64,000 bases of DNA from an uncultured Pelagibacteraceae bacterium. GTDB taxonomy: Bacteria > Pseudomonadota > Alphaproteobacteria > Pelagibacterales > Pelagibacteraceae. The DNA is taken from contig CABYPZ010000003.1 in the NCBI GenBank assembly GCA_902521005.1, positions 1 through 64,000 on the forward strand. The letters are read 5' to 3'. The notes under the pieces are model-generated. The model worked only from the letters and a program-made list of their open reading frames with translations. It ran no database searches and was not told where the DNA came from. Shown piece by piece: positions 19,395 to 60,386 of this stretch. Each line of letters begins with the position of its first letter. The stretch's first letter is position 1. The translations under genes were made by a program, and so were the position numbers.

Positions 19395-19400
19395 ATTTGG

Positions 19401-19474
19401 TGGGCCCGCCAGGACTCGAACCTGGGACCAATACATTATGAGTGTACTGCTCTAACCAACTGAGCTACAGGCCC
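19401..19474 (-). tRNA. tRNA with CAT anticodon (Ile2/lysidine candidate, or elongator Met)
   Basis: Minus strand GGGCCTGTAGCTCAGTTGGTTAGAGCAGTACACTCATAATGTATTGGTCCCAGGTTCGAGTCCTGGCGGGCCCA + encoded CCA (19398-19400); canonical cloverleaf; C4-G69/C5-G68 pairs resemble tRNA-Ile2. Confidence 0.93.
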
Positions 19475-19533
19475 AAAATTAAAATATTAAATATATCATT
19501 TTTAGGAAGTTATCAATTGTTGATTAAAAATGG

Positions 19534-19605
19534 TGGGCCGTGTTGGTTACGCTCCAACTACCCCTGCAATGTCAATGCAGTACTCTACTATTGAGCTAAC
19601 GGCCC
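19534..19605 (-). tRNA. tRNA-Val(GAC) with atypical D- and T-loops
   Basis: Minus strand GGGCCGTTAGCTCAATAGTAGAGTACTGCATTGACATTGCAGGGGTAGTTGGAGCGTAACCAACACGGCCCA + encoded CCA (19531-19533); all stems form, anticodon loop TTGACAT. Confidence 0.88.
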
Positions 19606-19607
19606 TT

Positions 19608-21443
19608 TTAACTTTCTAAGAAACTTTTTAGCTGTTTTGATCTACTAGGATGTTTTAATTTTCTAAGTGCTTTAGCCTCAATTTGTCTTATTCTCTCTCT
19701 TGTGACAGAAAACTGCAATCCAACTTCTTCAAGAGTATGATCAGTATTCATTCCAACACCAAATCTCATTCTTAAAACTCTTTCTTCTCTTGGGGTTAAT
19801 GTTGATAAGATTTTAGTAGTTGCTTCACTTAAGTTAGATTTTATAGCTTGTTCAAGTGGAGCTAATGCTTTTGTATCTTCAATAAAATCTCCCAAACTAC
19901 TATCTTCTTCGTCACCAACTGGTTTTTCTAATGACACAGGTTCTTTAGAAATCTTTAATACTTTTCTAACTTTATCTAATGGCATTCTTAATTTCTTTGC
20001 TAATTCTTCTGGGGTAGCTTCTCTTCCAAATTCACTCAATATCAATCTCTGAGTTCTAACAATCTTATTTATTGTTTCAATCATATGTACTGGAATTCTA
20101 ATTGTTCTTGCTTGGTCAGCAATTGATCTGGTAATAGCCTGTCTAATCCACCAAGTGGCATAAGTTGAAAACTTGTATCCTCTTCTATATTCAAATTTAT
20201 CAACTGCTTTCATCAAACCAATATTTCCCTCTTGAATTAAATCTAAAAATTGAAGACCTCTATTTGTATATTTTTTAGCAATAGATATAACTAACCTTAA
20301 GTTTGCCTCTACCATTTCTTTTTTGGCAATTCTTGATTCTTTTTCTCCTTTTTGAATTCTACTTACTAATTTTTTAAAATCTGTAACTGATACACCAAGT
20401 TTATTACTTATTTCTACCAATCTTTCTCTGATATTTTTAAACTCATCTTTATTTTTTTGGAAGAACTTTTTCCAGATTTCGTTAGTATTTAAAAAATTTT
20501 TTAAGTTTGGATTTATTTCATTTCCAACATAAAATTTAATAAATTCATCTCTGTTGATTTTATTATCTATAGCTAATCTTAAAAGATTTCCCTCCAAAGA
20601 AACGATCTTCTTGTTTTCTATATAATGTCTTTGAACTAAATCCTCTAAAACGGATGGAGAAAGTTGTAAGGTTTTAATATTTTCCAGAATACTTTCGACA
20701 ATTTTGTCATAATTTTTTTGTTTGGAATTTGAAAAAACATTTGAGTTTAATACACATTCAAGTTTTTCTTTTTGGTACTTAATTAATTTATTGTATTCTT
20801 TTGTTAGAGTATTAACTGTTTTTAGAACTTTTGGCTTAATCTCAGTTTCCATTGCTGCTAAAGTAGGATTGAACTCATCATCACTAACTTCAGAATTTTC
20901 TTCAGAATTTTCTTCAGCGTCATCGTTTTCACCTTTTTTTTGTTTAACACTGGTTCCTGTATCTTCATCTTCAGTATAATTAGTATCTATATCTATAATT
21001 TCTCTTACTAAAATTTCATCACTCTGTAATTTAATATTCCATTCAAAAAATTGTTGGGCTGTGATTGGACTTTGAGATAAAGCATTTAACATCACATCTT
21101 TTCCTGCTTCTATTCTTTTAGCAATTGCAATTTCTCCCTCTCTTGAGAGTAATTCAACTCCTCCCATTTCTCTAAGATACATTCTGATCGGATCATCACT
21201 TTTCTCTGCTGATTTACCTTCTTCTTTAGAACTTGAATCTTTTTTTCTTAAAACTTTGAAGTCTGATTTTTTTTCTACTAAAACTATTTTGTCATCTAAT
21301 ATATGAATAAATGCTTGGGCAAGATTCTCTTGTGATAAATTTCTTTTTCCTAAAGATTTATTTAATTCTTCATAAGTTATAAAACCTCTATGGACACCTC
21401 GGCCCATTAGTCTTGCAAACGATTTTGTAATAATTCTTTCCAC
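19608..21443 (-). CDS. rpoD: RNA polymerase primary sigma factor (sigma-70)
   Basis: Regions 1.2-4.2: [74 protein letters not shown]. Confidence 0.98.
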
Positions 21444-59231: not shown

Positions 59232-59270
59232 ATCATATAACAAAACGAGTCCATTATTTTCAATCTCTGG

Positions 59271-59299
59271 TTGACGAAGAATCTACACTAGAGTCTAAT
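59271..59299 (+). promoter_or_regulatory. Predicted sigma70 promoter of the CcrM-type gene with GANTC sites
   Basis: TTGACG (59271-59276) - 17 nt - TCTAAT (59294-59299); GANTC at 59247-59251, 59279-59283, 59291-59295. Confidence 0.65.
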
Positions 59300-59312
59300 T
59301 GTTTTTTAAGAA

Positions 59313-60386
59313 ATGATTAATAAGAACCTACATAGCAAAATAATCAAAGGTGATAGTCTAAAAGAATTAAAAAAAATTCCTGATGAGACATTTGATTTAA
59401 TTTTTGCTGACCCACCATATAATTTACAATTACAAAATAGTTTGATTAGACCAGATAGATCAAAAGTTAATGCTGTAAACGACAAATGGGACCAATTCGA
59501 AAGTTTTAAAACATACGATGAATTTACAAGTGAATGGTTAAACGAATGTAAAAGAATTTTAAAGAAAAATGGGTCTATTTGGGTAATCGGAAGTTACCAT
59601 AATATATTTAGAGTTGGTAAAATAATTCAAGATTTAGGTTTTTGGATTTTAAATGACGTAATCTGGAATAAAAATAATCCTATGCCAAATTTCAGAGGTA
59701 CTAGATTTACTAATGCCCATGAAACATTAATCTGGGCTTCTAAAAACAAAAAATCAAAATATACTTTTAATTATCAGTCAATGAAGTGTTTCAATGATGA
59801 TTTACAAATGAGATCAACTTGGAACTTACCTATATGTAATGGCAAAGAGAGATTAAAAAATAATGGAATAAAAGTTCATTCGACCCAAAAACCTGAAGCT
59901 TTACTTCACAGGATTATATTAGCATCTTCAAATAAAGACGACTTCATTCTAGATCCCTTTTTAGGATCTGGAACGACAGCTGTTGTATCGAAAAAATTAG
60001 GTAGAAATTATTATGGTATAGAAAAAGAAAAAAAATATTTTGAAGCTGCAATTAAAAGAATAAAAAATACTAATATAATTAAAAATGAATATTTAGATAC
60101 AGTTCAAAACAATAAATCTAAACCAAGAATTCCTTTTGGTTCATTGATCGAGCTAGGAGTAATTAAACCTGGAATAGAAATTTATGATCGTAAGAAAGAA
60201 GTTTATGCAAAAGTAATGGTTGATGGAAGCATTAAATATAAACAGAATGAAGGATCAATACATAAAGTTGCAGCTCAAATTTTGGGATCTGAAAGTTGTA
60301 ATGGTTGGACCTATTGGTATTATCAATCAGGAAATAGCTTGAAACCAATTGACGATCTTAGGCAACGTCTAAGACCTAGAAACTAG
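59313..60386 (+). CDS. ccrM: CcrM-type adenine-N6 DNA methyltransferase (predicted GANTC)
   Basis: DLIFADPPYNLQLQ, GSIWVIGSYHNIFRVG, NPMPNFRGTRFTNAHETLIWASK, DPFLGSGTTAVVSKKLGRNYYGIE; C-terminal extension. Confidence 0.95.
   Translation: MINKNLHSKIIKGDSLKELKKIPDETFDLIFADPPYNLQLQNSLIRPDRSKVNAVNDKWDQFESFKTYDEFTSEWLNECKRILKKNGSIWVIGSYHNIFRVGKIIQDLGFWILNDVIWNKNNPMPNFRGTRFTNAHETLIWASKNKKSKYTFNYQSMKCFNDDLQMRSTWNLPICNGKERLKNNGIKVHSTQKPEALLHRIILASSNKDDFILDPFLGSGTTAVVSKKLGRNYYGIEKEKKYFEAAIKRIKNTNIIKNEYLDTVQNNKSKPRIPFGSLIELGVIKPGIEIYDRKKEVYAKVMVDGSIKYKQNEGSIHKVAAQILGSESCNGWTYWYYQSGNSLKPIDDLRQRLRPRN

Follow-up and report, generated by a model that had tools for sequence, protein, structure and literature searches.

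Coordinated change of the D-loop/T-loop elbow contacts in tRNA-Val(GAC) of SAR11 bacteria, and the same elbow in phage tRNAs

The G18-Psi55 and T54-A58 contacts are textbook constants of tRNA. The window analyzed here, a stretch of 64,000 nucleotides from an uncultured member of the Pelagibacteraceae (genome G000, a 1.0 Mb SAR11-type draft, 86% complete), contains a tRNA-Val(GAC) gene next to rpoD that has neither of them. This raises the question of whether the gene encodes a working elongator, a tRNA with some other role, or a decaying copy. The features of the locus are the following.

19398..19474, minus strand: canonical tRNA with anticodon CAT, adjoining tRNA-Val(GAC), probably of the Ile2 type (ARAGORN)
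19531..19605, minus strand: tRNA-Val(GAC) gene, CCA encoded (ARAGORN; Rfam RF00005, 53.6 bits)
19542..19546, minus strand: 3' strand of the T-stem, CCAAC (sequence)
19547..19553, minus strand: T-loop AGCGTAA, i.e. A54 G55 C56 G57 U58 A59 A60 (sequence)
19554..19558, minus strand: 5' strand of the T-stem, GTTGG (sequence)
19571..19573, minus strand: anticodon GAC (ARAGORN)
19586..19592, minus strand: D-loop AATAGTA, with A18 at 19589 and G19 at 19588 (sequence)
19608..21443, minus strand: rpoD (list of open reading frames; same layout in relatives)

The gene parses as GGGCCGT TA GCTC AATAGTA GAGT A CTGCA TTGACAT TGCAG GGGTA GTTGG AGCGTAA CCAAC ACGGCCC A CCA. Pairing is complete in the acceptor (7/7), anticodon (5/5) and T-stems (5/5), the D-stem is paired at 4/4 positions including one G10-U25 wobble, and the anticodon loop TTGACAT is a normal 7-nt loop with a valine anticodon. 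In agreement with the original prediction of a tRNA-Val(GAC) with intact stems, the gene was called by ARAGORN and its Rfam RF00005 score of 53.6 bits is well above the cut-off of 29 bits. The elbow residues listed in that prediction (A18, G19, A54, G55, C56, G57, and U58) were all found as described: A18 and G55 stand in place of G18-U55, A54 and U58 in place of U54-A58, and the outer elbow pair G19-C56 is kept. The 15-48 pair, overlooked at that time, is also unusual (A15/A48). Among the 29 tRNAs of the draft genome, tRNA-Val(GAC) has the second lowest Rfam score and is the only one with an altered 18-55 contact. Two bases separate the rpoD stop codon from the 5' end of the downstream tRNA, and the two genes are likely co-transcribed. 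The CAT-anticodon tRNA of relatives is usually located 45-75 bp downstream of tRNA-Val. Elsewhere in the window, Rfam matched a bablM sRNA at 59247-59316 (54.5 bits).

A first pattern scan, keyed on the D-stem and the anticodon arm, returned at least 120 loci; among the matches listed, all were from Pelagibacteraceae, Pelagibacterales or Pelagibacter, 118 had the T-loop AGCGTAA, and two had canonical loops together with G18. The altered form (A18 with T-loop AGCGTAA) is present in 169 of 297 genomes of the order, and all but one of these belong to g1, the genus of the window genome. Canonical tRNA-Val(GAC) is found in the sister family f2 and in the genera g2, g3, g5, g6, and g7, with the exception of one g5 genome (G070), and constitutes a minority within g1. 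Thus the canonical T-loop in close relatives, which the original prediction had named as an observation that would speak against a genuine change, does occur at this locus, but it is always joined with G18. Apparent losses of tRNA-Val(GAC) in some genomes were rejected: G058 reaches a contig end, and G009 has a canonical copy missed by the patterns.

Comparison of 223 SAR11 Val(GAC) loci, with some genomes represented more than once, yielded 37 distinct sequences. A18 is combined with G55 in 14 of them and G18 with U55 in 23, and none is mixed (Fisher 1.6e-10, a value that overstates the number of trials because related sequences are not independent events). G19-C56 is kept in all 14 altered sequences, and the acceptor, anticodon and T-stems show compensated variation (for example GGGCCGT/ACGGCCC, GGGACTG/CAGTCCC, and GGGTCGT/ACGACCC). 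A minimal pair is formed by G166, with the D- and T-loops AATAGTA/AGCGTAA, and G287, with AATGGTA/TTCGATC, in which the acceptor and anticodon stems are the same. For G256, the T-loop TTCGA was seen first and the D-loop was then found to be AATGGTA, that is, with G18. An intermediate state is observed in G192, where the loops ATTAGTA and TGCAATC combine A18/G55 with retained U54/A58. The minimal pair, the intermediate and G256 thus show that the 18-55 contact can be separated from the 54-58 contact. An alternative pairing of U20 with G55 in a D/T helix was considered and is weakened, as U20 varies (AATAGAA) and A18 never does. The suggestion that the elbow had changed in a coordinated way rather than by random decay is strongly supported by this covariation and, independently, by that in phage tRNAs.

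The phage tRNAs were detected by a viral scan that used the T-arm alone and gave matches in tRNA arrays of large phage contigs from IMG/VR, a collection whose contigs may include misassigned sequence. The tRNAs with the altered T-arm are specific for Leu, Ile, Asn, Trp, Val and other amino acids, and include Val(GAC). Among the matches listed, the G55 class covers at least 31 anticodons on at least 71 contigs, and the combination of A18/G55 with A54/U58 occurs in at least 62 distinct phage tRNAs. The covariation set comprised the 1,242 distinct tRNAs left on contigs from the matches listed after exclusion of all tRNAs matched by the scan patterns. In this set, G55 occurs with A18 in 54 of 55 cases. 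The partner of U55 is G18G19 in 1,134 tRNAs and AG in 8, and 60 of the 74 tRNAs with A54 have U58, the other 14 having A58. Among phage tRNAs, covariation was likewise seen for the outer 19-56 pair (U56 with A19 in 25/26, A56 with U19 in 5/6). A54/U58 was also found alongside G18/U55; therefore the two pairs change independently. The G55 class is rare (1/117) on contigs picked by means of a pattern for canonical tRNAs, and is therefore concentrated in certain arrays.

BLAST searches with the SAR11 tRNA against annotated phages gave no match and thus no close phage copy. The G55 class is absent from the five annotated phages with similar tRNAs that were parsed (Pseudomonas phage 16Q, Escherichia phage ukendt, NootNoot, S-CRM01, and ZPAH1), so that the exact elbow was not traced to any isolated phage. 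Other elbow variants are seen in isolated phages: U56 with A19 in Pseudomonas phage 16Q, and A54 in Escherichia phage ukendt and Aeromonas phage ZPAH1, the isolated-phage T-loops being ATCGAAA and ATCGTTA.

The original prediction had also remarked that U54 and U55 are the normal substrates of TrmA-type and TruB enzymes, and this proved prescient. The near-universal Psi55 synthase TruB (PF01509) was found in none of 235 sampled genomes of g1, g5, g6, and g7; it is present in 9/9 genomes of g2-g4 and in 42/53 genomes of the sister family f2, and the controls of the search were positive in 14/14 genomes. The complete genome of a relative, G003, has the gene order infB-rbfA-rpsO-pnp with 15 nt from the rbfA stop to the rpsO start, at the place where relatives have truB, and truB is cleanly absent from this region (around record position 113440-114081). 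A profile built from two SAR11 TruB sequences matched nothing in G003 beyond a short frame (13.8 bits). On a tree of CarB, one gene from a group in which recombination is very frequent, a branch with 96% support separates g6, g7, g1, and g5 from g2-g4, which is consistent with one loss of TruB. The TrmA-type family PF05958 is absent in the 13 SAR11 genomes tested, and TrmFO was not found either in G000, where there is only a partial MnmG/GidA match, or in G003, where GidA matches itself alone. Because TruB, TrmA and TrmFO were not found, the tRNAs of TruB-less SAR11 very probably lack Psi55 and m5U54. However, U54 and U55 are kept in other tRNAs of the TruB-less genomes, so the absence of TruB does not by itself compel the change. 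The altered allele is also present in two TruB-positive g4 genomes (G158 and G097), and TruB loss is therefore a setting for the altered elbow and not a requirement.

The altered and canonical Val(GAC) alleles share the same rpoD-side locus, and at least 10 switches between elbow states are seen across well-supported branches of the CarB tree, with the reservation already made about a one-gene tree in such a recombining group. Three different Val alleles are found in one group with near-identical CarB (G046, G166, G022, and G058), the fourth genome ending before the locus. At the same time, one 71-nt tRNA sequence, counted from acceptor to acceptor without CCA, is unchanged in 140 of the 223 loci, some genomes being repeated. 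In many SAR11 genomes tRNA-Val(GAC) is surrounded by island genes, which from their sequences were named glycosyltransferase-like, methyltransferase-like, asparagine synthase-like and other variable genes, and stray partial copies of the 3' half of the tRNA were found in G017 and G110. A prophage sitting in a SAR11 tRNA-Val has been described (PMC7542561). Exchange of Val(GAC) alleles between lineages is well supported. In the TruB-positive g3 genome G009, Val(TAC) and canonical Val(GAC) are located side by side at positions 394407 and 394496, which is possibly the older arrangement.

A phage source of the altered allele is plausible but unproven, because no copy close to the SAR11 sequence turned up in annotated phage records. 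According to the fullest version of this explanation, tRNA-targeting defenses or missing host modification would have selected modification-free elbows in phage arrays, and one such tRNA-Val would have entered SAR11 by integration at the tRNA-Val hotspot and then spread. The abundance of the elbow in phage arrays, Val(GAC) included, favors it, as do the SAR11 prophage, the flanking island genes with the 3'-half copies, and the result that among 240 alphaproteobacterial genomes the exact elbow pattern occurs in just two, both of g1. Nevertheless, 75 nt are too short for a tree and convergence is possible, and we regard this scenario as tenable but somewhat doubtful.

Neutral compensatory drift, in which elbow positions freed by the loss of TruB and of the U54 methylases would have changed with no benefit and no phage source, appears unlikely. 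It would fit a TruB-less clade, the sharing of one locus by both alleles among close relatives, and a tRNA-Phe that has changed as well (see below). On the other hand, the tRNA sequence shared unchanged by 140 loci (some genomes repeated) and the several alleles on near-identical CarB backgrounds are better explained by transfer and selection than by slow drift, and the altered elbow in TruB-positive g4 also disagrees with it.

The role of the tRNA in translation can be judged best from the complete genome G003, which has 31 tRNAs including one Val(GAC) and one Val(TAC); GUU and GUC together make up 59% of its valine codons. The sole tRNA-Phe of G003 (204435-204509) has the D-loop AGGAGTA and the T-loop TGCGAAT, that is, A18/G55 with U54/A58. 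The Phe codons of G003 have no other reader, so translation must tolerate an A18/G55 elbow. The tRNA-Phe of the window genome (G000:C2:60453-60525) has G18/U55 with U58 (T-loop TTCGTTT), and the syntenic locus thus holds two very different tRNA-Phe genes, A18/G55 in G003 and G18/U55 in G000. ValRS reads mainly the flat G19-C56 face of the elbow, and this face, used by the known elbow readers, is kept in the altered tRNA-Val(GAC). It is likewise the flat, exposed G19-C56 face that RNase P, L5 and the L1 stalk mainly contact (PMC4810234). Since tRNA-Val(TAC) could in principle read every valine codon, Val(GAC) may be dispensable.

A non-translational function, cell-wall or regulatory, could be imagined from the loss of conserved elbow nucleotides and the existence of a second Val tRNA. 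The original prediction had cited as a precedent the staphylococcal cell-wall tRNA-Gly, which has Gly identity, altered D- and T-loop residues and multiple copies, and serves peptidoglycan synthesis. The likeness consists in altered D/T-loop residues in a bacterial tRNA; in contrast to the multi-copy tRNA-Gly, the SAR11 tRNA is a single-copy tRNA-Val with a compensated elbow. It has an encoded CCA, keeps G19-C56, and has a valine anticodon reading the commonest valine codons; moreover, its place at the locus can be taken by canonical alleles, and the sole tRNA-Phe of G003 shares the 18-55 change. A cell-wall-type role is not supported by these data, and any non-translational role is very improbable. 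Finally, a decaying pseudo-tRNA or a sequencing or assembly error, for which one could adduce the low Rfam score within the genome, is already refuted by conservation over 169 genomes with compensatory stem changes, by the identical gene in more than 100 independent single-cell and metagenome assemblies, and, as regards a pseudo-tRNA beside a normal gene, by the search for a second Val(GAC), which found none either in the 86%-complete window genome or in complete G003.

The observed conservation, covariation, TruB absence, allele exchange and presence in phages probably reflect a working elongator tRNA-Val(GAC) with a compensated alternative elbow that needs no Psi55 or m5U54 and that is exchanged at an island hotspot, possibly after derivation from a phage. 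As judged from comparative sequence data, this tRNA would read GUU and GUC. A18-G55 would replace G18-U55 and A54-U58 would replace U54-A58, both new pairs in a predicted geometry, around retained G19-C56 and purine 57. Such an elbow would need neither Psi55 (TruB) nor m5U54 (TrmA/TrmFO), and may be tolerated, or perhaps favored, in a SAR11 lineage without these enzymes. At this tRNA locus, a hotspot of islands and prophages, the allele would pass from one lineage to another, and it probably has a common source with the phage tRNAs of the same elbow.

The finding is one instance of a compensated alternative elbow and not an oddity of one gene. A broader proposal, for which we see the case as evenly balanced, is that A18-G55, with or without A54-U58, around the kept G19-C56 constitutes a second self-consistent tRNA elbow. 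It would work without Psi55 and m5U54, occur across most isotypes in phage arrays, and be fixed in the Val and, in at least one genome, the sole Phe tRNA of TruB-deleted SAR11. Other D/T-loop combinations can reportedly work in principle, as seen by the Steinberg group in E. coli suppressor tRNAs selected from D/T-loop libraries; those are laboratory selections, whereas the SAR11 combination is natural and phylogenetically fixed. The phage array tRNAs of IMG/VR have the same A18/G55 and A54/U58 elbow, also in Val(GAC), but represent many isotypes, whereas the SAR11 tRNA is chromosomal and single-copy. The closest published parallel is the eukaryotic tRNA-Ala with A54/A58 and R15/A48, stated not to have been observed in bacteria (Westhof 2020, PMC7566577). 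In this tRNA and in the eukaryotic initiator tRNA (A54/A58), the loss of U54 is matched by a change elsewhere, as in SAR11, and the joint occurrence of A48 and a purine at position 54, as in tRNA-Ala, is also seen in the SAR11 tRNA-Val (A15/A48, A54). However, residue 58 stays A in the eukaryotic tRNAs and no 18-55 change is described for them, whereas the SAR11 bacterium has A54-U58 together with A18-G55. Among the open-access papers searched, none was found to describe an A18/G55 elbow or the loss of TruB in SAR11.

Through the natural covariation of both contacts, in phages and in the main SAR11 genus, phylogeny can be used to test which features of the elbow are important (the outer 19-56 pair and purine 57) and which can be traded in matched sets. 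Most sampled Pelagibacterales have cleanly lost TruB and so provide a natural setting in which to ask what Psi55 is for, and the distribution in phages allows one to test whether modification-free elbows shield phage tRNAs from host control or nucleases.
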